A stretch of 26,165 nucleotides of DNA from Prevotella sp. UBA4376 (GTDB lineage Bacteria; Bacteroidota; Bacteroidia; Bacteroidales; Bacteroidaceae), in assembly GCA_002391185.1 (NCBI GenBank), contig DGRY01000028.1:1184-27348 (forward strand), read 5' to 3'. The notes beneath the pieces are model-generated. The model saw only the letters and a list, made by a program, of their open reading frames with translations, had not been told where the DNA came from and did no database searches. Both the position numbers and the translations under genes were made by a program. Positions 1,617 to 22,212 of the stretch are shown one piece after another. Each line of letters opens with the position of its first letter. Position 1 is the stretch's first letter.

Positions 1617-2864
1617 TTAATTGAACTCGCTCATGTCAAAGGTGTCGTCACGTTTTTCGAGTTCCATCTGTGTTGTTGTGTTTGATGGACTCCAGTCAAC
1701 ATATTGGACGTCGTAGCTGATGACTTCGCCTTTGTGGTTGAGGTCGATGTTGAGAATGGTGATGAAACCTGGCTTCAGCAGCACGGAGTTGAAGGTGCTG
1801 CGGTAGAGTTTGCTAACTGGTTTGCCTGAATCGGCATCTGTGTAATGTGCCAGAAACTCTATGTTGAAGGGTTCTGTTGTTGATGTGGCGTTGTAGTATT
1901 GTTGATCTTGTGGCACAAGTAAGCCATAGAAGGAGAATGTTTTCTCCTTGTCGGTATCAGCAGAGGCTGTGTTGTAGTTATAGAACTTCACAGGTTTGCG
2001 AAGTGTCATTTCCATTCCATTATATTTTTCCTTTATATCGTTATCGGCATCTGTGGTCAGGGCACGCACACCTGCATCTCCCTGATCCCAACGATAGAAT
2101 ACTGGTTGGTTGAGCACACGAAGATTGCTAATAGTGGTATTCTTGTCGCCTCCATTGGCAAGATAGTCTTTAAGGTTCACGTTCACTCGCACGCAACTAA
2201 GGGCATGGCGAAAATGAAGTATTGCCTTTGCACCATTATCAGAAGGTGTTAGCGTGTCGTTCTTTACGAGAAGAAGGTCTTCGGCATTCATAAGGTTTAT
2301 ACCTTCCTCGTTGTCAGAGAAGTCTATAGTGTCTTTTGTTATGTCGCCAAGTGAACCATAATAGTATTTGATAGATGATTTGTCATCAATCTTTACTTCT
2401 ATGCTATCCCAGTCAAAGGTGTCGCTAACAGGAATAGAGTAGGCTATTAGCTGGTTGGTGCTTGTGGCATCGGTCCAGAACAGCGTTTTCTCGTTACCAT
2501 CTGTTGGTGTTTCGCCTTCCATTGGTCGTTCCCACGAGCCGTTTCCCTGATAATTAAGAATGAGGTTATGGTAGCTGTATCTCTTTACTGGATTATTGGT
2601 ACGTTGGAATGTGGTAATGACAATCTGGTCTTTGTCATTGTCGAAGTTGATGGTATTGGTAGCCGAATTATATGTGCCTCTACCGATAGCTGTTCCCAGA
2701 TTATCGGATGTAATTGTGGCACGTGAGACTGGTGCAGAAAGTATTCCTGCCTGAAAGGATTTTATTTCTATTGGGTTGCTTTCTGGAGTAATTAATTCGT
2801 TTGTATCGATGCATGAACATAATGCAAAAATACTCATGATAGCTATATATATGTTCTTATTCAT
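1617..2864 (-). CDS. Fimbrillin-like lipoprotein, last gene of the pilus operon (415 aa)
   Basis: A fimbrillin (FimA/Mfa1-type) pilus subunit, expected to be lipidated, exported to the outer surface and assembled by donor-strand exchange. It has a lipoprotein signal peptide with lipobox LCSC (Cys18) and a Ser-Arg-Ala site with Arg48, 30 residues after the Cys, as in fimbrillins whose first strand is released by proteolysis. Two further family landmarks are visible: the FRHALSCVRVNV strand (~residues 218-230) and the C-terminal pattern of a basic 'G.I' strand followed by YVDWSPS near residue 393. A 29-residue tail, rich in charge, follows the VDW motif. It lies 12 bp after the previous gene and ends the operon. 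Terminal position and length suggest a minor subunit, but this is inference. Confidence 0.75.
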   Translation of the reverse strand: MNKNIYIAIMSIFALCSCIDTNELITPESNPIEIKSFQAGILSAPVSRATITSDNLGTAIGRGTYNSATNTINFDNDKDQIVITTFQRTNNPVKRYSYHNLILNYQGNGSWERPMEGETPTDGNEKTLFWTDATSTNQLIAYSIPVSDTFDWDSIEVKIDDKSSIKYYYGSLGDITKDTIDFSDNEEGINLMNAEDLLLVKNDTLTPSDNGAKAILHFRHALSCVRVNVNLKDYLANGGDKNTTISNLRVLNQPVFYRWDQGDAGVRALTTDADNDIKEKYNGMEMTLRKPVKFYNYNTASADTDKEKTFSFYGLLVPQDQQYYNATSTTEPFNIEFLAHYTDADSGKPVSKLYRSTFNSVLLKPGFITILNIDLNHKGEVISYDVQYVDWSPSNTTTQMELEKRDDTFDMSEFN

Positions 2865-2876
2865 TATTCAGTAGGG

Positions 2877-3983
2877 TTAGAGTTTCATTGTTACTTTATA
2901 TAATGTTCCTTCTGTAAACTCTTTGATGGAGAGAGGCATCTTGAATCGACGGTTTCCGTCACGAAGCCACACAACAGGTGCTTTTGAAAGCGAACAAGGA
3001 GGAAGTATGAGTCGATATACTTTTCCGCTCTTGTGGGCTGTGTAAACGGCATTTTGCTCAATATTGGCAAACGAGGTTACTGTGGCTTTCTGCTTACTAT
3101 CGTCGTTGATGGCAATACCTAATACCTTACCATTATCTTCGGCTGAACATGCTTCCTTTTCTGTCATGCCGTAAGGATACTGGTCTTTGTTGTATTCTGC
3201 ATATTTGTTTCCCACAACTACCTCCTGCTGGTCGATATCAGGCATACCTTCAAGGGTGATGATGGCATTATCTGATATCTTGTTTTCAAGATTGCTGTCA
3301 TCGATAGTTATCTGCAAGGCAGCCATAACATGCTTGAATTGCAGGTGAACATTATAAGAACCTGTCTGCATTATGTTTTGTGCCCACAGAAGGTCAGAGG
3401 CAAGATAGTTTTTCTCTTCCTGCTGATTGGCATGAAACACATAGCTGTATTGTGATATTACTCTTTTGTTTGGAGCGGTGAACACAATGTTTTCCGACCA
3501 TGTTGAGGCGGTATATACGTATGGCGTCTGCTGAGCCTCAAAATGTTCAAGAATGTTTGGAGCCGACATATAGGCATATTTAGCTTCAACATCAATCTTG
3601 TCGTCGCTGGTGATATTGGTCCATGCTGTGCCGTTCCATTTCAGCAGCCAATAGCTGTCGGTGCTATGTCCCCATGTTGTTTCACCTATTTCTTTTCCAG
3701 AACTGAAAGGGCATATAACCTTTAGCTTTATGCGGTCGCCAGTAAGGAAGGCTGTTCCTTCGATATTTGAACGGCTATGTTCTTCACCATAGAAAGGTGA
3801 GATGGATGTTGTTAGCGAGATTCCTTTGTCTGAATGTAACGAAGTTTCTTCGGGAGCATCTAAAGAGCATCCCGTAAGCAGAAGACATAAAAATGCTATG
3901 AAGCATTTTGAATGTTGAATGTTGAATGTTGAGTGTTGAGTAATTCGCACTTCGTGCGATGTTGAATTATTTGATATATTCAT
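2877..3983 (-). CDS. Fimbrillin-like lipoprotein with a repeat-encoded N-terminal extension (368 aa)
   Basis: A fimbrillin-family subunit. The core has lipobox LTGC (Cys39), Ser-Arg at 70-71 (32 residues after the Cys), the LQFKHVMAALQITI strand near residues 214-227, and a C-terminal TEGTLYKVTMKL strand. Unlike its neighbours it stops right after that strand and lacks the ..DW.. motif. The odd part is the first ~26 residues before the hydrophobic segment: they are encoded by a heptanucleotide repeat and a small palindrome (3908-3965) typical of intergenic DNA. The ATG at 3983 is only 4 bp after the preceding stop codon, which supports it, but the signal peptide n-region would be unusually long and polar. 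No later ATG precedes the lipobox; a non-ATG start closer to it cannot be excluded. Confidence 0.7.
   Translation of the reverse strand: MNISNNSTSHEVRITQHSTFNIQHSKCFIAFLCLLLTGCSLDAPEETSLHSDKGISLTTSISPFYGEEHSRSNIEGTAFLTGDRIKLKVICPFSSGKEIGETTWGHSTDSYWLLKWNGTAWTNITSDDKIDVEAKYAYMSAPNILEHFEAQQTPYVYTASTWSENIVFTAPNKRVISQYSYVFHANQQEEKNYLASDLLWAQNIMQTGSYNVHLQFKHVMAALQITIDDSNLENKISDNAIITLEGMPDIDQQEVVVGNKYAEYNKDQYPYGMTEKEACSAEDNGKVLGIAINDDSKQKATVTSFANIEQNAVYTAHKSGKVYRLILPPCSLSKAPVVWLRDGNRRFKMPLSIKEFTEGTLYKVTMKL
3908..3965. repeat. Heptanucleotide repeat plus palindrome inside the 5' coding region
   Basis: The word TTGAATG recurs in tandem at about 3908-3928 and continues as TTGAGTGTTGAG. A hairpin TCGCAC-TTC-GTGCGA (3945-3959) follows, then another GTTGAATTA. 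This type of low-complexity word repeat usually lies between genes in Bacteroidetes. Here it encodes the N-terminus of the 368-aa fimbrillin. Confidence 0.65.
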
Positions 3984-3987
3984 TGTT

Positions 3988-6435
3988 TTAATTGTTCTGT
4001 TTGGTTACATCCCAGTTGGATTCCTCTGTTGGTACGCCTTTTGAAAGTTGTGGATAGAGATGCTGATAGCCTGTAGAGCCAACGCTAAAGTGCATGTTGC
4101 ATTTAACGGCATCAGCAAGTCCTTTGGTGGCGTTATATCGATAGATGGCATAGTTCATGGCTTTCCATGGGGCAATACCATAGAATTCTTGTTTCTGCAA
4201 GGCTGACAGTTTGCTGTAGTATTGCTTGTCGCTGAGCAGATTGTCGTTTTTTGCCTTCAGCACGTGTGATTTAGCACCACGTATATACTGCTGTGGCAGA
4301 TAGTCGTCGGCTGTGGTGCCAACGGCATGAGCCTTGGGCGACTTCTCTATGTCGTAATAGTTGCACATGAAGCGGTTGAACGTTACGTTTTTTATTTGTG
4401 GAGCAAAGAACTTTGATATGCCAGCATATCCTCCGAGCAGAGCACCTGCAGTTATTCCCTTTCCTGTTTCCATGCAGCCATACATAAAAAGGTTGTCGGC
4501 GCTATTCACCATTGCTTGTGTGGCTGTTCCTTCATGTATGCAACCTACTACATAGCTATTGCCTGTAATGCTGTTGGCAATGGCACTTGTTGTTGGTGCT
4601 TTGAGAGATATTCCAGCGATGTAAGCACCGAATTTCTCGGCACCAGCAGTTATGCTGTTTACAAGCGATGTGGTATGAACACTTTCCAGGCGAAGGTTGG
4701 TAATGGCACCACCTTTTATGTTGCCGAAGAGGTAGCCGCCTTTCACGTTGATATTCTTTATCACGTGACCTGCACCATCGAAGAATCCAGAGAAAGGATG
4801 TGTGGCTGAATTGCCTATTGCTTCAATCTCTTCGTCTTCAAGATCAATATCAGCACCCAGAACAACCTTGAAATGATTGTTTGACGTGAGGTCGCTTCTA
4901 TAGAAAGAGAAAGGCTCGTCCAGGCAGTCGAGATAGCTATATGCTTCAACGGTACTCGTTTGTGGTATAAAGTGTTTGTATAGAATGTGGTTGCCTTCAA
5001 CTTCGTTGTTTACAAGATAAGGCACTTCCTTTTCTGAGGCTTCGCCTCCTTCATTGGTAACATACCATTTCTTGTTTTCCTTTTCATCAGCATCGATGAT
5101 GCCGTTCTTGGTACTTCCTGTAGTACCGTTTACAATCTGTATGAACTCAAGGAAATCCTGCTTTGTGTTCAGAGTGAATACAGGTGTGAAGGTGTTGTTC
5201 TGGAAAGAATTTTCCATGCCTTTCTGGAACCAGTCGTAGCTGCCACGTGACGAAGTCTTTGTCTCGTTGCTTACGTTGTTGGCTTCAATATCTTGTTCTG
5301 TCCATGAAAGTTTATTAACGAGTGTAACGGTAAATTTGTTATACTGGTAGCCCACAGAGAAAATATAGCTCTTACCAGCTTCAAGAGTTAATCCGTTTTT
5401 AAAGTCATCGCTTACATCAGCCAGAGTTAGATAATGGCAATCGCCCTCAACACCGGGTGTGTTACTGTGGTCGCCGTTGTTAACATCTTTAAGATATATT
5501 CTGAACTTTGTGAAACCAGGTAGAGTGATAGTTCTTTCCTCGTTAGAAGGTTTTTTGCTGAACTGATAAGGAATAGAAAGCATATATAGACGTCCATCAA
5601 TGTTGGATGTGAACTTAGGACGCATAATATCATTCTTCACGGAGTCGGCTGTTTGAGTGTTGAAAGCAACAATACCTGCATTTTTGTGAATGTTCTTGTA
5701 GTCGGTATTCTCAGCGTTGAAAGCTTCTTGAGTGATAGAGTAGAGTGTTTCGTCAGTCATGTTTACACCGGCAGGCATACACATAAGGTCGTAGGCAGCT
5801 TGAACAGCAGCAGCCTTTTCTTCGGCAGTCATACCTTCTGAGTCGGTATATTCGGAAGCCGATGTGCATATAGAGGCACTAACAAGTTCGTTGCCCGATT
5901 TCTGTGAAATACCAATACGACAAGCAAGGTGACGCATCTGTAGTGGAATTGTTACGGTTGGTCCGTAAGCACCTTTCCAACTTGATATTGTAAAATCAGG
6001 ATAATAGTTTGTTTTACTTGAGTTTCTTAGCAGGTCGGCAAGATTACTTCTTCCCCATGCACGAAAGCGCACCGTTTTGTCATTCTCCCAGATGAGTGAG
6101 TCGCCATTCATAGCCTTCCACTCTGCTCCGAGTGATATGCTACCCGAAGTCATTGGGGCATAAACATACACACGGCTTATTTCGCTTTTGGCATCAAACT
6201 CTTTGGCATTATTGCTACTAATATACTGGCGATAGATAGTTAGCTGGTCGTTCTCGTTGAAACTACCATCATGATTGTATGTTGTACGAGTGGAAAAAAC
6301 ATCAGCCATAGAAGCATCGAAGTTGACAGCTTGACCGATAAGCTCACGTTGCTGCTCTGTAAGCTGCATATCATCTTCGTTGCACGATGCAATTATAAAT
6401 GCTGATAATAGAACTATTATATTTTTAATCTTCAT
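3988..6435 (-). CDS. Large fimbrillin-like lipoprotein with GLUG-type C-terminal region, likely tip adhesin (815 aa)
   Basis: Lipoprotein signal with lipobox IASC (Cys18). A Ser-Thr-Arg site (Arg50) lies 32 residues after the Cys. The N-terminal ~385 residues are fimbrillin-like and end in a typical GKSYIFSVGYQYNKFTVT strand followed by LSWTEQDIE near residue 378. The C-terminal ~430 residues are different: a GLUG-like stretch at about 545-585 (HPFSGFFDGAGHVIKNI, GGYLFGNIKGGAITNL) suggests a beta-solenoid-like fold, as in adhesive tip subunits. It is more than twice the usual fimbrillin length. It lies 57 bp after the 481-aa gene, across a word repeat, and 4 bp before the 368-aa gene. Being a tip adhesin is inferred from architecture. 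Confidence 0.75.
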   Translation of the reverse strand: MKIKNIIVLLSAFIIASCNEDDMQLTEQQRELIGQAVNFDASMADVFSTRTTYNHDGSFNENDQLTIYRQYISSNNAKEFDAKSEISRVYVYAPMTSGSISLGAEWKAMNGDSLIWENDKTVRFRAWGRSNLADLLRNSSKTNYYPDFTISSWKGAYGPTVTIPLQMRHLACRIGISQKSGNELVSASICTSASEYTDSEGMTAEEKAAAVQAAYDLMCMPAGVNMTDETLYSITQEAFNAENTDYKNIHKNAGIVAFNTQTADSVKNDIMRPKFTSNIDGRLYMLSIPYQFSKKPSNEERTITLPGFTKFRIYLKDVNNGDHSNTPGVEGDCHYLTLADVSDDFKNGLTLEAGKSYIFSVGYQYNKFTVTLVNKLSWTEQDIEANNVSNETKTSSRGSYDWFQKGMENSFQNNTFTPVFTLNTKQDFLEFIQIVNGTTGSTKNGIIDADEKENKKWYVTNEGGEASEKEVPYLVNNEVEGNHILYKHFIPQTSTVEAYSYLDCLDEPFSFYRSDLTSNNHFKVVLGADIDLEDEEIEAIGNSATHPFSGFFDGAGHVIKNINVKGGYLFGNIKGGAITNLRLESVHTTSLVNSITAGAEKFGAYIAGISLKAPTTSAIANSITGNSYVVGCIHEGTATQAMVNSADNLFMYGCMETGKGITAGALLGGYAGISKFFAPQIKNVTFNRFMCNYYDIEKSPKAHAVGTTADDYLPQQYIRGAKSHVLKAKNDNLLSDKQYYSKLSALQKQEFYGIAPWKAMNYAIYRYNATKGLADAVKCNMHFSVGSTGYQHLYPQLSKGVPTEESNWDVTKQNN

Positions 6436-6439
6436 ATTA

Positions 6440-6515
6440 TAGTTTATGAGTTCAAGAGTTTATGAGTTCAAGAGTTTAAGAGTTCAAGAAGTTTAAAAGT
6501 TCAAGAGTTTAAGGG
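6440..6515. repeat. GAGTTCAAGAGTTTA word repeat between and into pilus genes
   Basis: Imperfect tandem copies of words such as GAGTTCAAGAGTTTA fill the 57-bp gap between the 481-aa and 815-aa genes. They continue into the last codons of the 481-aa gene, whose final residues LKLLNF are encoded by the same words. Confidence 0.7.
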
Positions 6516-7938
6516 GGCAAAAACTCAAATTAATATTTATGACTTCGGCACGATAGCCCATTTCAGGAACCCAATGGTAAATGCCTTTTTGATCTTTTTC
6601 AAGATGCACATTAGCCTGCCATGCTTCGTTGTATGAGCCGGTATAGCTTTTTCTGTCTTCAGAAAGAGTTATCTTGTCTTCCTGAATGGTTTTGTAGTTG
6701 GCGTTAATGCCATTAAAAAGCGATGTAGTGCCTTCTGGGAAGTTCATGAGTGTTATAGTGTGGTCTAAACCATCAAGATGTCCTGTGAAGACGAACAACT
6801 TCTTTTCTATCAATTCCTTCTGTTCATCCGAAAGGGTAGTGTAGTCAATAGTTGTGTCCTTGTCGAGAATGAAATAATCACCATGATGCGCACCCTCTTC
6901 GGTAGTCTGGAACAGTTTGTTTATCCATTCAGAATCCTTAGAATAGGTGAATGCACGTTGCCAACTACTTCCAGACTCTGAAAGCGTGTGGTTTGGTGTG
7001 TCGAACTCGTAGTATGAGTCGTGGTATGTTTTCTCCTCCCATATTTGCGATTCCGACTTGTTGAAGTCAACACCTTCGGCATTAATGTTCAGATATACAT
7101 TAAGCTCCTGGTTGGCATTAAGAGCGTAAGAAACAGTCTTGTTATATTTCAAACCAGAAGAAAGCAGAACTTTTATTTCACAACTGCTTGTTGATGGAGT
7201 CTCTTTCTCGTCGTACATAACATTGGCTGCTACTGAATAAGTTGGGCGCACGATAATATCGAATACCGAATCAGCTTTCAGGGTGTGAGGCTTTAGTTCG
7301 TCTATTTTGTCCCATACAGGCGAATAGGTGAAGTTTGTACCAGTAGTCAATCCTGTAAGCACATCAACATTCTTGAAACTGATATTCTGTAGTTTTACAT
7401 CTTCGCCAAGAAGCGGGTCGATATTGATATGTGCAATAATGCGTGCCAGACGATGAGCAAAAGGAAGTGTAATCTTCTCTACTGTAGAGCTTATGCGGAA
7501 GTTAGGTTGAATGGCAAGAAACTCAGACAGCATGGTATAGCTGTCGTCATTCTGTTTTGTTGCATCAAACGAATTATTATTGAAGGCTGTGAGCAGAGCC
7601 TTTGGCCAATAGATAGCCTGAAACTCATGAAGTCCGTTGTTGAGCCAGCGTGCAGGTTTACCATCGGCATCAGTCATGTGATAAGCCTTATCATCGTCTT
7701 GCCACAGAAAGGCATTATAGAAGGTGCTGTTAGGCTTGGTGATGCTATATTCTTTGTAGCGCACAGGAATATGGTTGTCTTTGCCGGTAGGAAGCGAGAA
7801 CGACAGTTCTGTTCCACCAACATTTATAATGTCGTTGAGGTTTTCGTTGATACCATTGCTTTCTGCAATATCGCTGGCAGAACAACCCACGAATAATGCT
7901 GCGGCAAGTAACCATATATGTGAAATATACCCTTTCAT
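6493..7938 (-). CDS. Fimbrillin-like lipoprotein with short GLUG-like segment, possibly C-terminally truncated (481 aa)
   Basis: Lipobox FVGC (Cys19) marks a surface lipoprotein. The N-terminal ~300 residues are fimbrillin-like: HEFQAIYWPKALL near residue 107, then TLPFAHRLARIIAHI, the equivalent of the KHA strand in its neighbours. The C-terminal part starts a GLUG-like region (FTGHLDGLDHTITL, ~residues 383-397, then TSLFNGI). It ends soon afterwards, at YRAEVININL followed by a few residues read from the word repeat. The 815-aa neighbour continues for over 200 residues past the same motif, so the end here looks cut off and capped by repeat DNA. It is also the one subunit without an Arg 28-36 residues after the lipid Cys, so it may not be processed like the others. 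It starts 9 bp after the 926-aa gene. Confidence 0.7.
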   Translation of the reverse strand: MKGYISHIWLLAAALFVGCSASDIAESNGINENLNDIINVGGTELSFSLPTGKDNHIPVRYKEYSITKPNSTFYNAFLWQDDDKAYHMTDADGKPARWLNNGLHEFQAIYWPKALLTAFNNNSFDATKQNDDSYTMLSEFLAIQPNFRISSTVEKITLPFAHRLARIIAHINIDPLLGEDVKLQNISFKNVDVLTGLTTGTNFTYSPVWDKIDELKPHTLKADSVFDIIVRPTYSVAANVMYDEKETPSTSSCEIKVLLSSGLKYNKTVSYALNANQELNVYLNINAEGVDFNKSESQIWEEKTYHDSYYEFDTPNHTLSESGSSWQRAFTYSKDSEWINKLFQTTEEGAHHGDYFILDKDTTIDYTTLSDEQKELIEKKLFVFTGHLDGLDHTITLMNFPEGTTSLFNGINANYKTIQEDKITLSEDRKSYTGSYNEAWQANVHLEKDQKGIYHWVPEMGYRAEVININLSFCPLKLLNF

Positions 7939-7947
7939 ATCTTAGTG

Positions 7948-10728: not shown

Positions 10729-10730
10729 AT

Positions 10731-11822: not shown

Positions 11823-11839
11823 GATGATTTCACTTGTTA

Positions 11840-13759
11840 TTACTCTGTTGGTACATCATCATCCCAGATGAGCTCGGCATTACCACTTCCTTCATTCTTT
11901 ACCCAGTCTTTAACATATCCGAGCAGTTCAACTGCCTGCTTTGAAATGTTGATGTTGTAGGTATATACATTGCCTTGCTCCCACAAAGAGATAGGCTCTG
12001 TTGTTGGCTTGCTGTCTTTTACAACTTTGGCATTTGCAAGATTGAAAGTGTATTTTGTTCCGTCTTTCAATGTTACGGTGAGAACCATGTCTTTTGTGGC
12101 TTGTGGAACAACAAACTCGTTGAGGATGTTTGTTGCTGTTATAGCCTGTGGCGTACCTGTAGCAGTTACTGCACCTGTGTGGATATCGAGTTTTCCTGAA
12201 GGATACACATTGCTTAGCGACAGAGAGGCATCAGTAAGATCAACATGCTTTGTTGATGCTTCGTTAGCTCCCTCTTCTGCTGTTGGAGTGGTGAGGTTGA
12301 TGATAACCTTACTCATTACGTGCTTGAACTCAAATGGTACAGAACCTGTACGTGGTGCAATGGCTTCGCCTTCGTTATATGTTTTTGTAGCATTTGATGC
12401 TTTGTGTGCAGCTGTTGTAGCCCAAACACGATCCTGCCCTTGTTTTACTACTCTTGCGTCATCGCCCTCGCCAAGTGTGGTGAGTTTTTCGCCGTCGTAG
12501 TTGGCTTCGGCACGGAAGTAATATGTATCAGTGCCGTTTGGCCAATAGATAGGAGAGTTAAGGCTGAGGCCGTTAGCTGTGTATTCTGCAGTGCGTGTAG
12601 AACTTGCAGTAGGCTCATCTGTTGCTGCAGTCATCCATAGGTTGAAAGCATTGCCTTCGGTTAGCTTATTAGCTATGTTGTGGCTCTTCACATCAGCAGT
12701 GAAGTCAATAATTCCTTCTCCCGCAGCTTCTACTGTAATCCAATCAGTAAGTGATGCAACTACTGAGACACCGCTCTTGTTGAGAGTTATAGTGAGATGA
12801 TAGTTGTAGCCAGGGAGGGTTTTTCCCTCAACAAGTGCTGTTGCCCACGCTGTTGTCAAATTGTCGGCAGTGAGATAGTATGTGTAGTTGTTTCCTTCTG
12901 CATCTGTGATGCTAAGGAAAGTGTTTTCTGTAGAAAGAACTGTGCCTGGAACTGTCATTGCAACATAGGTACGGGTCTTAACAGCAGCATCTTCCTCTGG
13001 AGCTGGGGAATACATAGTGAAATCATCAGCAGCACTTCCATCAACAGTTGCTGTTGGTGCAGTGAAAGTGCCTTTGCTGTTCATGCTGTGCAAGGTAACT
13101 GTAGTGTTCTTCAGTGCCTTGTTAGAAAAGCCGTTGCCTGCTTCAAGAACAACAGTAAACTCACTCATGGCATGAGTGAAAGGAACAGACAGATAGCCTG
13201 TCTTGCCGTTTTTCACACTTGCGTGAGAATAGGTTATCATATCCTGTGCAGCCGACCACAACAGATCGGTGTGCTGAATATCGTCGGCACTTGCTGGAGC
13301 TGTTATAGCGTTCCATTCCAAAGTTCCTGTAGCTTCTGTAAGTCTCTCTGGTGTACCACCATTATAGCAGTATCCATAGTAGCTTTGCAGGCCGTGATTG
13401 GTGGCACGGATATCTTTCTCGCTAACAGCCGATTTGCTAAAGTCATCCCAATAGAGCGGTGTTCCGTCAACCGATACACTTTCGGCAGCGTTAACTTTAA
13501 GAGTAACCAGTCGGTCGAGTTCTGCATCAACATCATTATAGTTATCTTTCGATGCTCCTTCTACATGGCGAACAAATGCTAACAGTTCGCTATTAGCAGC
13601 AAACTGGTTAGCTGATGCACGAGATACAACTGCAGAACTGAGCGAAGTGTTGAAACCCAGTTCAAGACGTTCTGTTGAGTCGCCTGATGTTATATCAGAC
13701 GAACATCCCACAAGGAACATCAAAGCAGATATCGGTAAAATTGAATATTTCAAATTCAT
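11840..13759 (-). CDS. Two-domain fimbrillin-like lipoprotein (639 aa from the preferred start)
   Basis: The lipobox LVGC has Cys19 and the Ser-Arg-Ala site has Arg47, counted from ATG 13759. Domain 1 (to ~residue 345) has FTHAMSEFTVVL and ends YHLTITLNKSGVSVVASLTDW. Domain 2 repeats the same plan: YWPNGTDTYYFRAEA, FEFKHVMSKVIINL, then YTYNINISKQAVELLGYVKDW and a short acidic tail. Domain 2 has neither lipobox nor an N-terminal Arg site, so this is one secreted chain with two fimbrillin modules. An in-frame ATG at 13786 would add nine residues and overlap the previous gene. I prefer 13759 because it gives a normal signal peptide (MNLKYSILPIS) 17 bp after the upstream stop. Overall similarity to the next two upstream genes is weaker than between those two. 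Confidence 0.78.
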   Translation of the reverse strand: MNLKYSILPISALMFLVGCSSDITSGDSTERLELGFNTSLSSAVVSRASANQFAANSELLAFVRHVEGASKDNYNDVDAELDRLVTLKVNAAESVSVDGTPLYWDDFSKSAVSEKDIRATNHGLQSYYGYCYNGGTPERLTEATGTLEWNAITAPASADDIQHTDLLWSAAQDMITYSHASVKNGKTGYLSVPFTHAMSEFTVVLEAGNGFSNKALKNTTVTLHSMNSKGTFTAPTATVDGSAADDFTMYSPAPEEDAAVKTRTYVAMTVPGTVLSTENTFLSITDAEGNNYTYYLTADNLTTAWATALVEGKTLPGYNYHLTITLNKSGVSVVASLTDWITVEAAGEGIIDFTADVKSHNIANKLTEGNAFNLWMTAATDEPTASSTRTAEYTANGLSLNSPIYWPNGTDTYYFRAEANYDGEKLTTLGEGDDARVVKQGQDRVWATTAAHKASNATKTYNEGEAIAPRTGSVPFEFKHVMSKVIINLTTPTAEEGANEASTKHVDLTDASLSLSNVYPSGKLDIHTGAVTATGTPQAITATNILNEFVVPQATKDMVLTVTLKDGTKYTFNLANAKVVKDSKPTTEPISLWEQGNVYTYNINISKQAVELLGYVKDWVKNEGSGNAELIWDDDVPTE

Positions 13760-13776
13760 CTTTTTGTCGTTTATTA

Positions 13777-15840
13777 TTATAGCCATACATCACCGCTGGC
13801 TTTTTCTGTTTGCCATGGGGCAAGAGACACAGAAATGTTGGCAATACCTGTCTTTTTCAACGTGAAAGTGTAGGTGTATTTGTGACCAGGCTTCCAGTCG
13901 GGGATTGCTTTAACATCACACAGGTTCACTTCATATCTCTGATTGTCCTTTGTTGTGATAATGAGCTTAACATTCTCGTTGCTTCTTGAAAGCACCTGTG
14001 GAACAACATCATAGGTGAAGTTGGTTTCTTCGCCGGCAGGAGCTGTCATCACCACATTTGCCTTAGCATTCTCGCCTGTGGTTACTGGCACAACACGTCC
14101 ATTACCCATAAGCACATGTCCCTGATGATACATATTTTCAATTACCACCTGAGCATCCTCAAGGTTCACCTTGTCGTCTCCGTTGGTGGTGTTAAGCTGA
14201 ACATTTATCTGTGAGAGCATGTGCTGCTCGATGATGTCAATGTCGTTTAGTGTAGGACCAATAGCCTGATAGATGTTGCTAAAGCCTTTGTCTGAACTAT
14301 ATGTGGTAGTAGCATTACCCATAGGAGCACCCCAGTGAGGATCTGATGCACCTCGTGTGCCACATGAGATAGTGAAATACGAGTCATCGTGAACATTGGT
14401 AGAGTAGTTTATTTCAGTGCCTTTCTTTACTGTTCTGAAATGATAGAAACAAGTATTGTCGTCGAAGAACCAATCTGTAGAATATTTATTCTGTTCATTA
14501 TTAGCTGTAAGAGTAGCTGCAGAACCATAGTTACCATTCCAAATCTTACCTACATAGTCATCGGTGATAGCATCGTTTCCAGCATCTCTAAGGCGATACA
14601 AGGCTATGTCGGTACATGAATTTTTACCTTCAGCCTGAGAAACAGAAATAGAGATGCGTGCATTGGTAGTAGCTACAGAACCGGTGACTGACTGCCAGTC
14701 AGACAAGGTTGCTTTTACAAAACTTACTCTGGTCTTGTTAAGATTGATGGTGAAGATGTAGTGCATTCCTTGTTTGAGGATGTATGGTGTGGCGTCGGTA
14801 GCAGGCTTGTCGGTAGCAGGCATATCTGTTGATGCCTTTAGAGCCTTTAGCAAGAGAGCCTGACTAACATAGTATCTGTTGCCATTAACAGTTATAGTGA
14901 TAGCATGATCATCGGCAGTACCTATAGACAAACCTGGCATGAAAAGACAACTGTTGTTGATAATCTTTGTCTGGTTTTCTGTTACATCAGTAGCATCCAT
15001 AGTGAGCAGGGCTTTGTCTTTAAGATTAGACCAGCTACCTGTAGAAATATCAAATGTGCCTGATGTGTAAGGCTTGAAATCGTCGTTGCCAAAGAGAACG
15101 GTTGTCTTTTGGGATGTGAAGTCTTCAGGACTAATATATCCTTCTCCCGAAACAAGATTCACCGTAATCTTTGTCAGTGCATGATTGAAATGTAGCTGTC
15201 CCTTTTCAAACTTACCTGCATCTTTGTGACCAAACCACAAACGGTTATCTTCTTCATCGCTCTTCTTAACAATGTTGTTGCTATACACAAGATCGTAGTT
15301 GGCACATTTTGTGTCGACTGCATTTTGGTTTTTGGCAACAGAAAAGTTGAAAGAGAGATTGTTCGCATTGTTGGCAGCTGTTTGCTTAATCCATGGATTG
15401 GCAGCTGATACCCCCTCTAATAATGTTTCGTTATTGAGAAGGGTGGTCTCCTTGTCGGCAATGGCGATAGCATATACCGATACTTTTGCTTCGCGTCCGT
15501 AGGTGTCGTCCCAAAAGCGACTCTCGTTCAACTTGTAGTCAACAGCGCTGTATGATTCCGAGTTGTTATCGTTGTCCTTTGATGCAAGGAGTGAAGCAAC
15601 AGACCATTCTGTTTCTGTTGCATTTTCCGATTCTTTTTCACTCTTTATTTTTGCAATAATCTTAGTGTCGGCCGTGGTGAATCCGGCACGTGAGAAACTA
15701 CCTGTCTGTTCAGCCGAAGCCGAAAGACTGATAGGTGTTTTGCCCCAGTTATCAGGATTGATGATATCTAACAAATCACTACTGCACGACGAAAGCGTGA
15801 GTAGTGATATGAGAGATATGTATGTTGTTTTTAATTTCAT
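13777..15840 (-). CDS. Two-domain fimbrillin-like lipoprotein, paralogue of the upstream gene (687 aa)
   Basis: Lipobox LSSC (Cys19). Phe-Ser-Arg-Ala with Arg51 lies 32 residues after the Cys. Domain 1 (to ~residue 385) shows RFWDDTYGREAKVSVYA, LHFNHALTKITVNL and HYIFTINLNKTRVSFVKATLSDW. Domain 2 begins NARISISVSQAEG and shows CFYHFRTV, QHMLSQINVQLNTT, VLMGNGRVV and the final YTYTFTLKKTGIANISVSLAPW. The same landmarks occur in the same order in the 673-aa product just upstream (YWDDAYGRDAKLSVYA, NARITLNL, VLMGSGLI), so the two are tandem paralogues. It lies 30 bp after that gene. It is probably a shaft or stalk component. Which paralogue forms the main polymer is not visible. Confidence 0.8.
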   Translation of the reverse strand: MKLKTTYISLISLLTLSSCSSDLLDIINPDNWGKTPISLSASAEQTGSFSRAGFTTADTKIIAKIKSEKESENATETEWSVASLLASKDNDNNSESYSAVDYKLNESRFWDDTYGREAKVSVYAIAIADKETTLLNNETLLEGVSAANPWIKQTAANNANNLSFNFSVAKNQNAVDTKCANYDLVYSNNIVKKSDEEDNRLWFGHKDAGKFEKGQLHFNHALTKITVNLVSGEGYISPEDFTSQKTTVLFGNDDFKPYTSGTFDISTGSWSNLKDKALLTMDATDVTENQTKIINNSCLFMPGLSIGTADDHAITITVNGNRYYVSQALLLKALKASTDMPATDKPATDATPYILKQGMHYIFTINLNKTRVSFVKATLSDWQSVTGSVATTNARISISVSQAEGKNSCTDIALYRLRDAGNDAITDDYVGKIWNGNYGSAATLTANNEQNKYSTDWFFDDNTCFYHFRTVKKGTEINYSTNVHDDSYFTISCGTRGASDPHWGAPMGNATTTYSSDKGFSNIYQAIGPTLNDIDIIEQHMLSQINVQLNTTNGDDKVNLEDAQVVIENMYHQGHVLMGNGRVVPVTTGENAKANVVMTAPAGEETNFTYDVVPQVLSRSNENVKLIITTKDNQRYEVNLCDVKAIPDWKPGHKYTYTFTLKKTGIANISVSLAPWQTEKASGDVWL

Positions 15841-15870
15841 TGTTCAAATGAATTCAACAGAGAAAAGAAA

Positions 15871-17892
15871 TTATTTTTCCAAACTGATGTTCTGTGATTC
15901 AGCATTGATAATTGTCCAATCAGCAACAGAAGCAGTCATACTCTTGATACCAGACTTAACGAGGTTGAAGGTATAGGTGTAGGTGTGACCTGGATACCAG
16001 CGTGTGATAGTTTGGCCAACAGTATGCTGAGGGCCAGCTACAGTAGCTGCCTTAATGTTGCTGAGGCGTTCTTTGAAGTACATAGACTGTCCTGTAGCTG
16101 TCTTGATGCTGATACCGATGTAGTCATTGTCATCGGTAGAATTTGCTTTTCGTTCAAGAAGCTGTGGAACAACGTTGAGAGTGTAGGTGTTGCTGTTTTC
16201 TGCTTTGTTAAGCACTACATCTGTAGTGCTACCTGAAAGTGTGATAAGACCGCTACCCATGAGAACCTTACCATTGTTGTCGATGCGGGTAATAGTTACC
16301 TCGCTACCTGTGAGGTCAACTGCAGTTTTGTCTTTAGTTGTTGTAAGGTTGATAGTTATCTGGCTCATCATGTGGAACTGAGTCATATTTATAGCATTAG
16401 TTGTTGCACCAATAGCAGGATTGATGGCGTCAGCATATCCATTTGTTACGTTGTAATCAGGTGTAGTGTTTGACTTCTTGATAGGAGCACCCCAGAGATA
16501 GTCGGTTGTTCCTGCAGTGATAGGGAAGTAGTCGACATTAGTTGCATCTGTTTTAACATCAGCGCTTGTGTTAACCGCACGGAAATGATAGTATGTCTTG
16601 TTGTTCTCGAAATACCATGCATCATCACCCTTAACTTCGTAGCCTGTTTTCCAATTTTTGTCCTCAGGATCTTTGAAGTCGTTTGTTGTGATTGCAGAAC
16701 GATAGAACTTGACATCGTTGCTTTCAGTACCATTGTTGAGAAGGTTGAGGGTGATGCGTGCATTGCTTGGGTCTGTAATCTTGGCTGTGATATCTGTCCA
16801 ACCTTCAACAGTTGCTGTCATTGTTACTGCAGTCTTGTTTACGTTGATGTTGAAGATATAGTTAAGACCATTCTCCAATGTAACATCTGTGTTTGTGAGC
16901 TTGGTCATTGAAGTAGCATTTACTGTTGTGTTCAATGCCTTATACATCATGTCGTATGTGATGTAATACTGGTTATCATCAATGATGAAACTCATGGCAT
17001 TGGCGTTGCTTCCCTTTGTGTATTTTGCACCTGGGATAACCTGTGCCATCAACTCGTGCTTATTATTGTCTGTGCTGCTCTTCTCGTAGATGCTTGCAAC
17101 GGTGTTTGAAGTAGCGTTGCTCCAGGTGCCGTTTGTAAGGTCGAGAGTAGCCGATGTAGGTATGTTGTAAAGGGTTACATTGTTGCCACCAGTGAAGTTG
17201 AAGCAGTTTGTTGCTGCAAAGCCTTTACCCTTGTTGAGGTTTACAGTGATACGAGCCAAAGCATGCTTGAACTGCAGGTTGCCCTGTTCAAACTTACCAG
17301 GACCATCTGTATCTTTAGGATCTTCGAGGTTGAACTTCAACTTGTTGTCGCCAGAGATGTTGTTGCTGTAGATAAGGTCTTCATTAAGAATGCTTTCTTC
17401 TGTCTGGGTAGTAGAAACATTCCATGCTACGGTGTGTGCAAGGTCGGTGTTTGACCATGTCTTATCTTTCTCTGGGGCAGCCAGCAAATTCTCTTTTACC
17501 TGAGTATCATCAGTTGATGTCTTGCCTGGAACAGCAAAAGCATAAACTGAGAGTTTTGCATCGCGACCATAAGCATCGTCCCAATAACGCTTATAAGAGT
17601 CGTCGAATACTACGCTTGAATAAGATGTAGCTGACTGTTCTTCATCCTTAGTTGCATTTGCTTGAGTTCTGGTTACACGTACAGCATTCTCAGCAGGACC
17701 TTCACTCTTGATGTGCATGATGACCTGTGTCGGTGCAGAGTTGTGCAAGCCAGCGCGAGAAGAGGTATTACTTTCTCCAGAGAAAGTAATCTGGTTTTTC
17801 ATACTGTTTGGAACAAATTCTTCCAATTCAATGTTGCTACATGCTGTAGTCATTACAGCTGCAGTCATAAGTAGGTAGTTGATTTTCTTCAT
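15871..17892 (-). CDS. Two-domain fimbrillin-like lipoprotein (673 aa)
   Basis: Signal peptide with lipobox TTAC (Cys18). Ser-Ser-Arg-Ala with Arg46 lies 28 residues after the Cys, the same residue number as the known Arg cleavage site of P. gingivalis FimA. Domain 1 runs to about residue 368: RYWDDAYGRDAKLSVYAFAV, LQFKHALARITVNL, then YIFNINVNKTAVTMTATVEGW. Domain 2: NARITLNLLNN, YYHFRAVN, FHMMSQITINLTTT, VLMGSGLITL, then YTYTFNLVKSGIKSMTASVADW and a short tail. It follows the 404-aa gene by 89 bp, the widest gap in the operon, which holds a hairpin repeat. It is the first of three consecutive two-domain subunits. Position after the gap and length fit a major structural subunit, which is inference. 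Confidence 0.8.
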   Translation of the reverse strand: MKKINYLLMTAAVMTTACSNIELEEFVPNSMKNQITFSGESNTSSRAGLHNSAPTQVIMHIKSEGPAENAVRVTRTQANATKDEEQSATSYSSVVFDDSYKRYWDDAYGRDAKLSVYAFAVPGKTSTDDTQVKENLLAAPEKDKTWSNTDLAHTVAWNVSTTQTEESILNEDLIYSNNISGDNKLKFNLEDPKDTDGPGKFEQGNLQFKHALARITVNLNKGKGFAATNCFNFTGGNNVTLYNIPTSATLDLTNGTWSNATSNTVASIYEKSSTDNNKHELMAQVIPGAKYTKGSNANAMSFIIDDNQYYITYDMMYKALNTTVNATSMTKLTNTDVTLENGLNYIFNINVNKTAVTMTATVEGWTDITAKITDPSNARITLNLLNNGTESNDVKFYRSAITTNDFKDPEDKNWKTGYEVKGDDAWYFENNKTYYHFRAVNTSADVKTDATNVDYFPITAGTTDYLWGAPIKKSNTTPDYNVTNGYADAINPAIGATTNAINMTQFHMMSQITINLTTTKDKTAVDLTGSEVTITRIDNNGKVLMGSGLITLSGSTTDVVLNKAENSNTYTLNVVPQLLERKANSTDDNDYIGISIKTATGQSMYFKERLSNIKAATVAGPQHTVGQTITRWYPGHTYTYTFNLVKSGIKSMTASVADWTIINAESQNISLEK

Positions 17893-17944
17893 ATGATATA
17901 TGATTTTTTTTTCTGTTTATAGTTTACGGTTTATGAGTTTACTG

Positions 17945-17978
17945 TACTCCCTCTCCTTTGGAGAGGGTCGGGGTGAGG
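17945..17978. repeat. Intergenic hairpin repeat of the CCCTCTCC type
   Basis: An 8-bp stem CCCTCTCC-TTT-GGAGAGGG (17949-17967) is followed by TCGGGGTGAGG. This word is, from memory, a common dispersed intergenic repeat in Bacteroidetes. It sits between the first three genes of the operon and the run of large fimbrillin genes. There is no T tract after it in the direction of transcription, so it is not a standard terminator, but it could pause RNA polymerase or affect mRNA decay. Confidence 0.6.
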
Positions 17979-17981
17979 TTT

Positions 17982-19196
17982 CTACTTTTCCAAATCTGTA
18001 TTTATTGTAGCATAGATATAGTCCCAGTCAATAATCTGTGCGGTACATTCTATCTCTCTTTTAACAATATCTTTCACCTTTATGAGGTAGGTGTAGATAT
18101 AGTTAGGGTTCCATGTGAACGAGTCGTTAGATGTGCCATTCTCGTTTAGCACAAGAGGAATATCCTTAAAGATGTTTGTACCTATCTTGAAACTGATAGA
18201 TAACTGCACTCCGCTTTGTGGAATTTGCAGTATTCCATCGGTGCAATACATCATGAATGCTTTGTCATCGCTATTGCATAGAGCAAGGTCGTTAAGGTTT
18301 GACTCTTTATCATCTGTTGTAAGCAAAACGGGATGCTCTTGAGTGCTAAGCAGTTTTGTGAATTTTCCTTTCAGAAGTGGAGTAGTGCTCAGATCAACAT
18401 CATATCCCCTTGCTTCGGTGATAAAATTGTTGGATGTTACCTTTATTTTTATATCGGTAACAGGAACATCCTTTAGGCTTCCTTCTTCTATACCGCTGTA
18501 GATGCCGAAACGAACCTTTGATGTGAAATGATGGAAGGGTAGTGACACCTGACGGGTGAGAGCCGTGCTTCCAGTGTTTATCTCTTTTGTGCCATTGTCA
18601 ATCATCAGGTCGTAGTCTTTGCCATCTGCATTGCGTATAATCTGACAAGGGAAGAAATCTTCGCGTCCTGTAGATGGACGTCCATTGTCGCAGGTTTGGA
18701 ACTGGAACACACCTGTTTCGGGAATGGTGAGATGATTGGTTGTAAATGTGATACCAGATGCATCTTCTGGGTATGGAGTAAGTGCATAGAAGGCATAAGG
18801 AAAGCCTTTCTTGTCCCAGTATGTTTGTTTCTGCTCTTTGATATATGTCTCAGATTTGCTTGCATACTCCCATGAGTAAACCGAGTTCCATGAGTCGTAA
18901 TGGTATTTGACCTGATAGTTGTCCATTACGGTTTTCTGGTTATCCAGCTGGAAATCTTTCCATGCGTTAACAATGAATCCTTGCTGAAGTGGATCGCTTG
19001 TTTGGTTTGTTGAAGATGTGATATTGGCTGTTATGGAATGTGTGGCTGTAGTGCGAAGAGACTGTATGGCTACCTGCGAGAATGTGAGTGGAAAATCTCC
19101 TGGCAGTTCCTCTTCGTAGGCATCAGAGGATGCACTACAGCTTGCAAGAAAAGCTGTAGTCATCAATGTTGCAATATAAATAAATGTTTTCTTCAT
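17982..19196 (-). CDS. Fimbrillin-like (Mfa-like) lipoprotein, third gene of the operon (404 aa)
   Basis: Lipobox LASC (Cys20). Arg48 lies 28 residues after the Cys but within SLRTTAT rather than SRA. It shows fimbrillin features: FIVNAWKDF early on, a YWDKKGFPYAFYALTPYP segment (~residues 122-139), LPFHHFTSKVRFGIY as the core strand (~residue 215), and a C-terminal NYIYTYLIKVKDIV ... IIDWDYIYATI. It is 11 bp after the DUF5119 gene and before the repeat-filled gap, so it groups with the promoter-proximal genes. In related loci this position often holds an anchor or base-proximal subunit, but I cannot prove that role here. Confidence 0.75.
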   Translation of the reverse strand: MKKTFIYIATLMTTAFLASCSASSDAYEEELPGDFPLTFSQVAIQSLRTTATHSITANITSSTNQTSDPLQQGFIVNAWKDFQLDNQKTVMDNYQVKYHYDSWNSVYSWEYASKSETYIKEQKQTYWDKKGFPYAFYALTPYPEDASGITFTTNHLTIPETGVFQFQTCDNGRPSTGREDFFPCQIIRNADGKDYDLMIDNGTKEINTGSTALTRQVSLPFHHFTSKVRFGIYSGIEEGSLKDVPVTDIKIKVTSNNFITEARGYDVDLSTTPLLKGKFTKLLSTQEHPVLLTTDDKESNLNDLALCNSDDKAFMMYCTDGILQIPQSGVQLSISFKIGTNIFKDIPLVLNENGTSNDSFTWNPNYIYTYLIKVKDIVKREIECTAQIIDWDYIYATINTDLEK

Positions 19197-19207
19197 GTCT
19201 TGTAGGT

Positions 19208-20356
19208 TTAAATCTCAAAGTGCCATATCACTTCCTTGTAGTCTTCAATAGTAGGAAGGAACAAACTCTCCATCTTCAATTCGCTCTGATACTCAGGTTC
19301 AAGCTGCATGCAATCTATATCTATGGTGATGATGCCGCCATAAGCCTGTTTCTTCATCTGGTCGGTGATGTCGCGACGATAGGTCTTGACAGTGCCATCG
19401 GCAAGTGTCAGGTCGAAATAAATGTAGTTATGCAGGTCGGAACGACCACCTTGATAGGTTGTGCCCTTGTTGCTATCGTAACGTTCCATATCGCATAGTC
19501 CGAAGGTGTTGAGACGGCCTCCTACAATATCTACTTCCTCGCCATCAATTTTGATGCCTTTCTTCATTCGGGTTGGCATATAAACCATGCAGGCATCGTC
19601 AAGAGTGTGTCCGGTGTTTACTATTGTACCGCGGGCAAGTGATGTAATGGCTGCATTGCCATCAACATCCTGCACTATGCTTTCATTGTTGTGCAGAACA
19701 ATTTGCACCAGATACATGTAAACGAGAGGTTTAAGTATTGCCTCGATATGTTTGATGTAAACGTTGTTTTCGGCATCGTATTCATAGTCGTTCAAATTTT
19801 CAGAGATATGCACATCCTTAGGGTAAGCTCCATACATCATCTCAGGTTGGTCGTGAAGACCAATGATGGCATCATCGTTTTCGCTGCGTCTATTAAAACC
19901 TTTGCTTCCATTGGTATATGCGATAACATTGTTTGGGTTACTTTCGTCAATCTGTACGTTAGGCGATTCGCCCTTAAAGTCAACATCCGACCAGAATAGG
20001 AGGTTGTAATATCCAAACTGGAAATATTTTCTGAATGAAGGGGTGTCGATGGTAAAGCCATCTTTACCAACAATTGCTCCATCAGGATTTTCACCTGTAT
20101 AATATCTGCGCACCTCAATGAGCTTTGGCATGGGGTATTCAAGAGAATCCCATAATGCAGCATCTGTTTCGTCCCATCCGAAATGGTATTTCACCTGAAC
20201 ATCGGTGTGCACATCCCATGCTACATCGATATCGGTGTCAACCTGTGGAAGGATAATTTTCATCTCCTGGCCAGGGAGATGAAGTGGTGGCTCAATACAC
20301 GATGTTATTGAGAATGTGGCTAAAAACAATAAAAGATATGTTGTTATATGTTTCAT
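19208..20356 (-). CDS. DUF5119-family lipoprotein, pilus-associated (382 aa)
   Basis: A lipoprotein (lipobox ITSC, Cys20) of about 380 residues, recognised by overall pattern as DUF5119, a Bacteroidales family regularly found beside DUF3575 and fimbrillin genes. Visible landmarks are CIEPPLHLP right at the mature N-terminus, WDSLEYP, FGYYNLLFWSDVDF, MYGAYPKDVHI, a central PLVYMYLVQIVLHN strand, and ITIDIDCMQLEP near the C-terminus. No Arg site exists near the Cys, so it is unlikely to be a polymerising subunit of the same kind. It lies 11 bp after the DUF3575 gene and 11 bp before the 404-aa gene. A role in anchoring or assembling the pilus at the outer membrane is inferred from context. Biochemical function unknown. 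Confidence 0.75.
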   Translation of the reverse strand: MKHITTYLLLFLATFSITSCIEPPLHLPGQEMKIILPQVDTDIDVAWDVHTDVQVKYHFGWDETDAALWDSLEYPMPKLIEVRRYYTGENPDGAIVGKDGFTIDTPSFRKYFQFGYYNLLFWSDVDFKGESPNVQIDESNPNNVIAYTNGSKGFNRRSENDDAIIGLHDQPEMMYGAYPKDVHISENLNDYEYDAENNVYIKHIEAILKPLVYMYLVQIVLHNNESIVQDVDGNAAITSLARGTIVNTGHTLDDACMVYMPTRMKKGIKIDGEEVDIVGGRLNTFGLCDMERYDSNKGTTYQGGRSDLHNYIYFDLTLADGTVKTYRRDITDQMKKQAYGGIITIDIDCMQLEPEYQSELKMESLFLPTIEDYKEVIWHFEI

Positions 20357-20367
20357 TATTCAGAGTG

Positions 20368-21771
20368 TCATTTCTGTATATTATATACAGGCTTTTTCTT
20401 TCTGTAGATGATGTCGTATGTGAGATGGATTCCTGCGTTGGTAGGTCCAAACCATGTCAAACTGTGATTACGTTTTTTGAAGTCTGACGAATTACCATGA
20501 TAGTTGTAATAGTATAGTCCGTCAATGTCACCAGTAACAGGGTTGCCCCATACGTAAGGGTCGAATTGAGTGTAGAAACCTCCGAAAGAAGCACTGAACT
20601 CAAGACGCAAAGAACCCTTTTTATTCAGATTGCAGGTGTAGCCAATACTTAGTCCTGCTCCTGCTCCTTCGCCTTCCCAACCTTTGGTTTCGCTAAAACC
20701 GATACCATATTTGGTGCCCTCTACATAGGCACTAAGGTAAGTACCGATGAACTGTCCCTCTCCCTTGAAATATCTACGAAGTTCAAACTGCAGGTCGCGA
20801 ATCTGGAAGAACTTGTGCTCGTCCCAATGGCGATGATTGCTGAATGTGAAACCTGCATTATAGGTGTAGTGTCCGTCGAGAGGATAATATTCCAGTTGTG
20901 TGTTGATGCCGAAGGCTGTGCCAAACTGTGGCACGTAAAGGAAATCGTGCAGCAGGTTGGTGCGCAAGGCAATGAGATGCCTACGAGTGTATTTCATTGG
21001 TTGCTCGGCACATTTCTGCTCTGGCATACTGATGTGTAGTTGTGCGTCAAGATTGGGTAATGGAGTCTTAAAAGGCACCTTGGGTGCTTCATACACTTCG
21101 TGATTGCGCACAAACCATAAAATTACTCGTGCCTGACGAAGTGTAGGGAAGTATATATCAAGAAGACGTTTCCATAGCTTTCCTTTGTTATACTTCATCA
21201 GTTGGGTTTTGCAATAGCGTTCGTCGCCTTTTGATTTGTCCCAAATAGCTTTTACGATGTTGTAGTCGGCATCGTTGGCTTTCTTCATCAAGGTAACGAG
21301 ATAACCATAGTCTTCTGTTATGCTTGATGCCTTAACGGGGAGTGCATCAGCTGAACGGCTAAGTCCTTTGCTAAGAAATTCAATAAGTCGTTGAGTACGT
21401 CCTCTACTCAAACGGATGTTATTGTTATAAGGACCCTCTGGTGATGCTGCTCCACGCACAAAAACCTGACTAAGACGCATATCCTGCGCCTTAAGCATTG
21501 GACGAAGCTCCTTGTTGTAGAGAGCTACAAAAGGGTCGGAAGGAAGCAATTCTGTTCTGTTCACGCGGAAATGAATTCCTCGTGAAATAGCATCGAACAC
21601 AGAATCAGAGATAACAGGAGCACAATTAGTACCAGATTCTGATACTATAACAAAAGGGTAGTCTGCCTCTTGTTTATAGACATGACTATCTAATACTTGT
21701 GCTCTTCCCTGATTAATGTGGCTCAAAAATACAGATACGCCTATGGCAATTTGCCGTATTCGAATCAACAT
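20368..21771 (-). CDS. OmpA-like/DUF3575 outer-membrane protein, first gene of the pilus operon (467 aa)
   Basis: A short signal peptide (to about GRAQ, residue 25) precedes an OmpA-C-like region at ~60-155: FRVNRTELLPSDPF, then VRGAASPEGPYNNNIRLSRGR, the pattern of the peptidoglycan-binding fold. A linker with aromatic residues leads to a DUF3575 beta-barrel-like region from ~residue 269 (ALRTNLLHDFLYVPQFG) to the end, with alternating strands and the YGIGFSETKGWEGEG stretch. It probably spans the outer membrane and contacts the cell wall, and so could anchor or help export the pilus. It is the promoter-proximal gene, preceded by a ~115-nt leader and followed 11 bp later by the DUF5119 gene. 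The family assignment is good; the exact role is inference. Confidence 0.8.
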   Translation of the reverse strand: MLIRIRQIAIGVSVFLSHINQGRAQVLDSHVYKQEADYPFVIVSESGTNCAPVISDSVFDAISRGIHFRVNRTELLPSDPFVALYNKELRPMLKAQDMRLSQVFVRGAASPEGPYNNNIRLSRGRTQRLIEFLSKGLSRSADALPVKASSITEDYGYLVTLMKKANDADYNIVKAIWDKSKGDERYCKTQLMKYNKGKLWKRLLDIYFPTLRQARVILWFVRNHEVYEAPKVPFKTPLPNLDAQLHISMPEQKCAEQPMKYTRRHLIALRTNLLHDFLYVPQFGTAFGINTQLEYYPLDGHYTYNAGFTFSNHRHWDEHKFFQIRDLQFELRRYFKGEGQFIGTYLSAYVEGTKYGIGFSETKGWEGEGAGAGLSIGYTCNLNKKGSLRLEFSASFGGFYTQFDPYVWGNPVTGDIDGLYYYNYHGNSSDFKKRNHSLTWFGPTNAGIHLTYDIIYRKKKPVYNIQK

Positions 21772-21893
21772 TTAATCACAATAAATTAAGTTACAGATAT
21801 TGAATTTGTGGTAGACCTTAATCAATTGGTCGCTTTTCGCAAAGTTAATCTATTTCTATTCAAATACCTTTCAATAATATATAAAACCAAGTG

Positions 21894-21924
21894 CAAAGAT
21901 ATAAAAAAATGAAAACAGTACAAA
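21894..21924 (-). promoter_or_regulatory. Consensus Bacteroidetes promoter of the pilus operon
   Basis: Read on the minus strand: TTTG (21921-21924), exactly 19 bp, then TATCTTTG (21894-21901), followed by CAC. Both boxes match the consensus without a mismatch. Predicted initiation near 21888 gives a leader of about 115 nt. A second -7-like box, TAACTTTG (plus 21840-21847), lies closer to the gene but has no matching -33 element. I see no invertible repeats around the promoter. Confidence 0.7.
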
Positions 21925-22189: not shown

Positions 22190-22212
22190 CATTCCGTAAG
22201 AATAAAAATGAT

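Follow-up and report, generated by a model that had tools for sequence, protein, structure and literature searches.

The window analysed here, a stretch of 26,165 nucleotides of the gut bacterium Prevotella sp. UBA4376 (contig DGRY01000028.1), carries twelve uninterrupted open reading frames (ORFs), all on the minus strand between positions 1617 and 21771 and numbered g1 to g12 along transcription. This putative operon probably encodes one heteropolymeric type V pilus that ends in a compound tip. More tentatively, and as a possibility rather than a probability, the pilus could be an ordered heteropolymer of at least five non-interchangeable shaft subunits with their own donor tails, including three fused pairs without an internal site, and with a co-inherited multi-protein beta-helix tip. 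From gene order, motifs, domains and the predicted folds of g6 and g10 we infer the cleavage, the strand exchange, the order of the fibre and the roles of the tip and of g1. A single pilus would be made from a fixed parts list, whose members g3 to g12 would be exported to the outer surface in lipoprotein form. There, a surface protease from another locus would cut them after a conserved arginine and thereby open a groove, while g2 would stay lipid-anchored. The position-specific C-terminal tails of the shaft-type subunits g3 to g7 would fill one another's grooves, and g8 to g12, which lack a shaft-type tail, would build a multi-part tip with beta-helix adhesins. In g4 to g6 a tryptophan and tail are kept between the two halves with no internal site, and these proteins would be pre-joined pilin pairs. 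The product of g1 may be an outer-membrane accessory.

Gene order was read in 25 loci, the window included, with profile matches counted over 50 or 60 bits; the profiles were derived from the first members of these loci, and their scores therefore favour them. Synteny in other genomes, which the preliminary description had proposed as a check, was kept: the order was identical in 25 of 25 loci, and all twelve genes were present in 18 of them from at least four genera (the window, L009, G185, G277, G117, G112, G268, G291, G337, G275, G346, G345, G209, G648, G593, G669, G511 and G665). Six further loci are truncated, either where a contig stops or at the limit of the retrieved stretch (G115, G290, L010, G645, G434 and G653). 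Assignment by profile was specific, as the remaining fimbrillin operons in this genome scored at most 56 bits. Some variation on the common plan was seen: in 15 loci g2 and g3 are separated by an extra lipoprotein of g3-like score, and seven have an additional double subunit of the g5 type.

Signs of type V processing were scored on 24 of these loci (all but G356). In the Mfa1 pilus of P. gingivalis, cleavage at an exposed arginine trims the precursors of shaft and tip but not the anchor, and the shaft protein has a tryptophan ahead of a final tail that is important for polymerisation (PMC5789003). The arginine site was taken as [STAVLM]-R-[AGTSVYR] at 20-45 residues past the lipid-carrying cysteine, which is a sequence motif only. 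Counting members with at least 200 bits and a clear lipobox, it was found in 208 of 215 copies of g3 to g12, against 0 of 21 copies of the g2 anchor; a slightly narrower motif occurred by chance in 173 of 1125 random stretches of 63 residues. By gene, the counts were 20/23 for g3, 22/22 for g4, 28/28 for g5, 20/21 for g6, 20/20 for g7, 21/21 for g8, 19/21 for g9, 21/21 for g10, 18/19 for g11 and 19/19 for g12. The window copies of g3 (LRT) and g9 (VRY) satisfy the motif by its loose forms only. The Peptidase_C11 family, a candidate source of the arginine-specific surface protease, is present in the same genome and in 6 of 6 others.

A tail that follows a tryptophan placed 8-26 residues before the C-terminus was found in 113 of 115 copies of the shaft-type genes (g3 22/23, g4 21/22, g5 28/28, g6 21/21, g7 21/21). 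None of 21 copies of g2 has it, and it was seen in 1/21 of g10, in a truncated copy, and in 1/19 of g11; the counts for g8 (5/21), g9 (10/21) and g12 (11/19) come from endings that differ from those of g3 to g7 by eye. The last seven residues agreed more closely among copies of the same gene (0.20-0.62) than between genes (0.05-0.13, but 0.30 for g3 with g4), and each shaft-type gene therefore has a tail of its own, that of g7 being the least conserved. These tails may act as the donors in strand exchange. In the alignments of the double subunits there was no cleavage site between the halves in 66 of 68 cases, so that each resembles two pilins fused in advance, and a central tryptophan was present in 67 of 68.

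The preliminary description had counted ten fimbrillin-type lipoproteins, three of them of double length, and both counts could be upheld. A lipobox was recognised by eye in all of g2 to g12, giving eleven lipoproteins (the anchor-like g2 and ten others), and by pattern in 236 of 239 members of these families. With hmmscan, Mfa_like_1 was found in six of the ten lipoproteins after g2 (g3, g4, g5, g6, g7 and g11), with two stretches apiece in g4, g5 and g6. A six-frame search of the genome added matches above the cut-off, absent from the hmmscan output, in g8 (38.3 bits, C70:10856-11686) and g12 (31.5 bits, C70:3088-3831), which makes eight of ten by either route. Within the g8 family hmmscan placed Mfa_like_1 in 2 of 11 members and Glug in 2 of 11; for g12 the figures were 2 of 11 and, for the GLUG motif, 1 of 11. 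No Pfam match was obtained for g9 and g10. Structure models were made for two of the subunits, g6 and g10, and both match solved type V pilins with the two-beta-sandwich pilin fold; in the model of g10 a beta-helix follows the pilin domain. Of the ten, g9 is the weakest case. A sequence search of solved structures matched g6 to 4k4k and 3ufi and gave nothing at E 0.01 for g1, g2, g8, g10, g11 and g12, and NCBIfam had no family for the ten proteins scanned (all but g4 and g5). The C-terminal domain of g8 is probably also a beta-helix. For g1, ten relatives with 51-81% identity were found, and g2 matched PF17145 with an E-value of 4e-5 at 23.9 bits, under the family cut-off of 27.

Whether one pilus carries many minor subunits or the locus encodes alternative tips for a common shaft had been left undecided in the preliminary description; the first is now favoured and the second less so. 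Under the second, g8, g9, g10 and g12 would be interchangeable adhesins, one per fibre, and would provide several binding specificities at once. This is unlikely, even if it would suit the existence of several tip-type subunits without a shaft-type tail where a fibre has one free end, and the shortness of g9 and g12 in the window and sheep copies, as if these were partly dispensable. Against it, g7 to g12 were each single and in order in all 22 loci that cover this stretch, G112, G209 and G356 among them. Moreover, protein distances among g7 to g12 correlated at 0.88-0.96 (16 loci, g5 left out), and those among g8 to g12 at 0.89-0.96. The value of 0.92 for g7 and g12, five genes apart, means that separation along the operon cannot account for this by itself. 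As the distal genes vary as a unit, a compound tip suits better than interchangeable caps, and a tip complex of three proteins is described for Mfa1 fibres of P. gingivalis (PMC5954841, PMC5789003). Fixed order, single copies and the joint variation of g7 to g12 are thus the grounds on which one heteropolymer is preferred to alternative tips.

A slightly less probable explanation still is that no fibre is formed and that the ten products, which would merely have the fimbrillin fold, act singly as surface lipoproteins or make up a flat complex of adhesins. It finds some precedent in a phase-variable locus of B. fragilis with a fimbrial N-terminal match, for which typical appendages could not be demonstrated (PMC12632263). 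The conserved arginine sites, the uncut type of anchor and the tryptophan tails speak for a fibre instead, being signs of type V polymerisation (PMC5789003). The least probable of the three, a base and shaft set (g1 to g6) with a separate complex made by g7 to g12, would fit the lower correlations of g1 to g4 with g7 to g12 (0.57-0.86) and the locus G356, where g4 to g12 occur without recognisable g1 to g3, but the distal set has no anchor-type (uncut) subunit that could be seen, the tail of g7 is shaft-type, and exact promoters inside these operons number just five on the coding strand against one on the other in 462 kb. Within the proximal part the correlations were 0.85 for g1 with g2 and 0.90 for g3 with g4, down to 0.50 for g1 with g4 (16 loci).

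Several observations weigh against the single heteropolymer. In the window, g9 is short with a weak site only (VRY), and g12 is without the C-terminal domain. The linker of g6 (residues 337-364) has a predicted local confidence (pLDDT) under 50, so that the model cannot support a second half completed by the first. The co-variation figures lack a control gene from outside the operon and omit g5, and neighbouring genes share history anyway. G356 has g4 to g12 in order with no g1 to g3 detectable by the profiles, and the base is therefore replaceable; G209, G115, G290, G665 and G653 have frames outside the profile assignments among these genes, and g4 of G593 is split into two frames. Finally, 10 of 19 loci have no exact promoter ahead of g1, and G185 carries three exact matches inside the operon.

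Regarding layout, the preliminary description had twelve genes on one strand, gaps of 2-89 bp, a single consensus promoter and no regulator, protease or recombinase, and all of this was borne out. The gaps hold when g6 starts at its second methionine (13759); a start at the first (13786) would give an overlap of 10 bp with g5. The promoter of the operon is an exact match to TTTG-N19-TAnnTTTG, which we take to be the Bacteroidales-type consensus. The window has two exact sites, where shuffled sequences give 0.23 on average; the second is divergent (22159-22189), and the minus strand showed no other site with a fixed spacer of 19 and one mismatch tolerated. Of the 19 loci with sufficient upstream sequence, the window counted, nine have an exact site (spacer 17-21) ahead of g1. 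Terminator-like hairpins numbered two, one on each strand, against 0.1 expected in shuffles. No family of regulators, proteases or recombinases was matched among the twelve gene products in the Pfam scan, and no Rfam match in the window reached its gathering score. An invertible promoter was rejected, as no convincing pair of inverted repeats was found on either side of the promoter; among the pairs listed (25 of 221), the longest that reaches close to it (21851-21886 / 22439-22474) is weak, A+T-rich and 72% complementary. The features are collected in Table 1.

Table 1. Genes and signals of the pilus operon in the window, and operons elsewhere with a related start.
Feature	Size	Position or locus	Strand	Description
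g1	467 aa	20368..21771	(-)	DUF3575 in C-terminal half (PF12099, E 3e-15)
g2	382 aa	19208..20356	(-)	Anchor-type lipoprotein, DUF5119-like; no cleavage site
g3	404 aa	17982..19196	(-)	Single fimbrillin, PF13149; shaft-type C-terminal Trp tail
g4	673 aa	15871..17892	(-)	Double fimbrillin, PF13149 in two stretches; shaft-type tail
g5	687 aa	13777..15840	(-)	Double fimbrillin, PF13149 in two stretches; shaft-type tail
g6	639 aa (648 from Met 13786)	11840..13759	(-)	Double fimbrillin, PF13149 twice; shaft-type tail; many alleles
g7	363 aa	10731..11822	(-)	Single fimbrillin, PF13149; shaft-type tail
g8	926 aa	7948..10728	(-)	N-terminal pilin-like part and long C-terminal domain
g9	481 aa	6493..7938	(-)	Tip-type subunit by position; weak Arg site
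g10	815 aa	3988..6435	(-)	Pilin domain (30-377) and parallel beta-helix (about 399-801), modelled
g11	368 aa	2877..3983	(-)	Fimbrillin, PF13149; no terminal Trp tail (Mfa4-like end)
g12	415 aa	1617..2864	(-)	Fimbrillin-like; nine relatives (598-720 aa) have a C-terminal domain that it lacks
Promoter TTTG-N19-TAnnTTTG		21894..21924	(-)	Exact match, about 120 bp upstream of g1
Terminator-like hairpin		1540..1568	(-)	After g12, common to convergent gene; better T-run on plus strand
Giant-frame operons		L032, L033, L034, L038, L039, L040, L041, L042, L044		g1 and g2 relatives at start

Two short repeats lie in the distal genes. A tandem 8-bp repeat (AGTTTAAG/AGTTCAAG) at 6441-6513 covers the gap between g9 and g10 and the codons for the terminal residues of g9; the window copy of g9 is shorter than most orthologues, and its last codons run through this repeat. 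The unusually long N-terminus of g11 holds 4.6 copies of the 7-bp repeat TTGAATG (3908-3939), which makes the start of this gene doubtful. Convergent to the operon is an ORF of 137 aa (1091-1504, plus strand). Its product has no Pfam match and is presumably similar to HicB-type antitoxins, with a helix-turn-helix at the C-terminus.

When 398 genomes of the genus were searched with g1, 78 of them had a match at 1e-10, with more than 500 bits in 13 (the own genome counted) and, in a fourteenth, G291, a match to part of the gene at 67%. The g10 profile matched 14 of the 398 genomes, 10 of 301 in the family sample (three of the same genus and seven from five other genera), and in the order sample the own genome as the sole match among 295. 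The g1 and g10 sets of the genus, 14 genomes each, overlap in 13. G290 belongs to the g1 set alone; its contig ends early, with an extra frame of 538 residues outside the profile assignments ahead of the contig end. G356 belongs to the g10 set alone. In the latter genome a gene for a YhcG-type nuclease (PF06250, L083:4171-5226) lies about 5 kb before g4 to g12, near the place expected for g1 to g3. Judged by the neighbours shared within 6 kb, the loci form at least a dozen groups, and this number suggests that the set moved as a block, rearrangement of the genome around it being an alternative.

Allelic variation differs along the operon. For g6, 47 of the 120 proteins listed (511 found) were at least 70% identical to the window copy, itself counted, and for g10 three of 120 (303 found). 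The query was an alignment for g6 and a single protein for g10, and this comparison is suggestive only of g6 as an exposed, diversifying part. Compared with a complete operon of a sheep Prevotella genome (L009 + L066), protein identity was 80% for g1, 97-98% for g2 and g3, 73-81% for g4 to g7, 83-90% for g8 to g10 and 95% for g11 and g12. DNA identity to L009 swings from about 64% to 100% along the compared part, flank included, and blocks of 94-100% (18166-20165 and 22166-22765) stand beside stretches of 64-90%. Purifying selection was set aside as the reason for the identity of g2 and g3, since DNA blocks of 99-100% span the flanks while other flank stretches have 84-89%. The pattern is better explained by recent recombination between lineages, or else by sequences mixed during metagenome assembly.

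The operon resembles the Mfa1 and FimA systems of P. gingivalis in its lipoprotein precursors with an arginine cleavage site, its uncut anchor (here from sequence alone), its shaft tryptophan before the final tail and several tip proteins encoded downstream (PMC5789003). In agreement with the preliminary description it is larger, having ten subunits with an arginine site and an anchor type where Fim and Mfa have five subunits each. Its five kinds of shaft-type subunit, three of them double, also set it apart, as do a tip subunit with a beta-helix and the presence of a DUF3575 gene within the operon. It therefore suggests a more elaborate version of the same kind of pilus. A second class of operons, the DUF3575-DUF5119 operons, begins with relatives of g1 (34-38% identity) and g2 (30-34%) followed by lipoproteins in 9 of 10 mapped loci, and ends in one giant frame of which 1662 to 4198 codons were seen (8 of 9 are cut by the retrieved stretch). 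In three of these operons, the profiles matched only g1, g2 and, weakly, g3 (55-75 bits), and L032, the one scanned, gave no Pfam match.

The preliminary description had implied that the locus was unique, which is not supported. A large set of pilin-like genes is not special in this genome, which has 40 Mfa_like_1 stretches on eight contigs. Four contigs, C34 (L014), C97 (L015), C98 (L016) and C199 (L017), hold similar sets of ten to twelve one-direction ORFs each, with a lipobox by pattern in nearly all and 4 to 9 Mfa_like_1 stretches per contig; eight of ten proteins scanned on C97 had a fimbrial family at or near the cut-off. These sets are non-orthologous to the operon (at most 56 bits with the twelve profiles), and their subunits are mostly of single length. 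Two more DUF3575 genes lie apart from the operon on C138 (L023) and C187 (L024). The operon stands out instead for a gene order that is fixed across genera, for tails specific to each position and for its fused pilins. Among the titles and abstract openings listed from the open-access literature, no paper describing it was found.

To our knowledge, it is an open question how the subunits of type V pili come to be ordered. An operon such as this one, which is conserved and has both position-specific tails and naturally fused pilins, would offer a direct test of subunit ordering, and the fused pairs would reveal which halves adjoin. Relatives of g6 and g10 are named from Xylanibacter (Prevotella) ruminicola and X. 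brevis, both of which are cultured species, and the fibres could be sought there. With several large fimbrillin sets in one genome, the surface fibres of such Prevotella may exceed the P. gingivalis model in richness.
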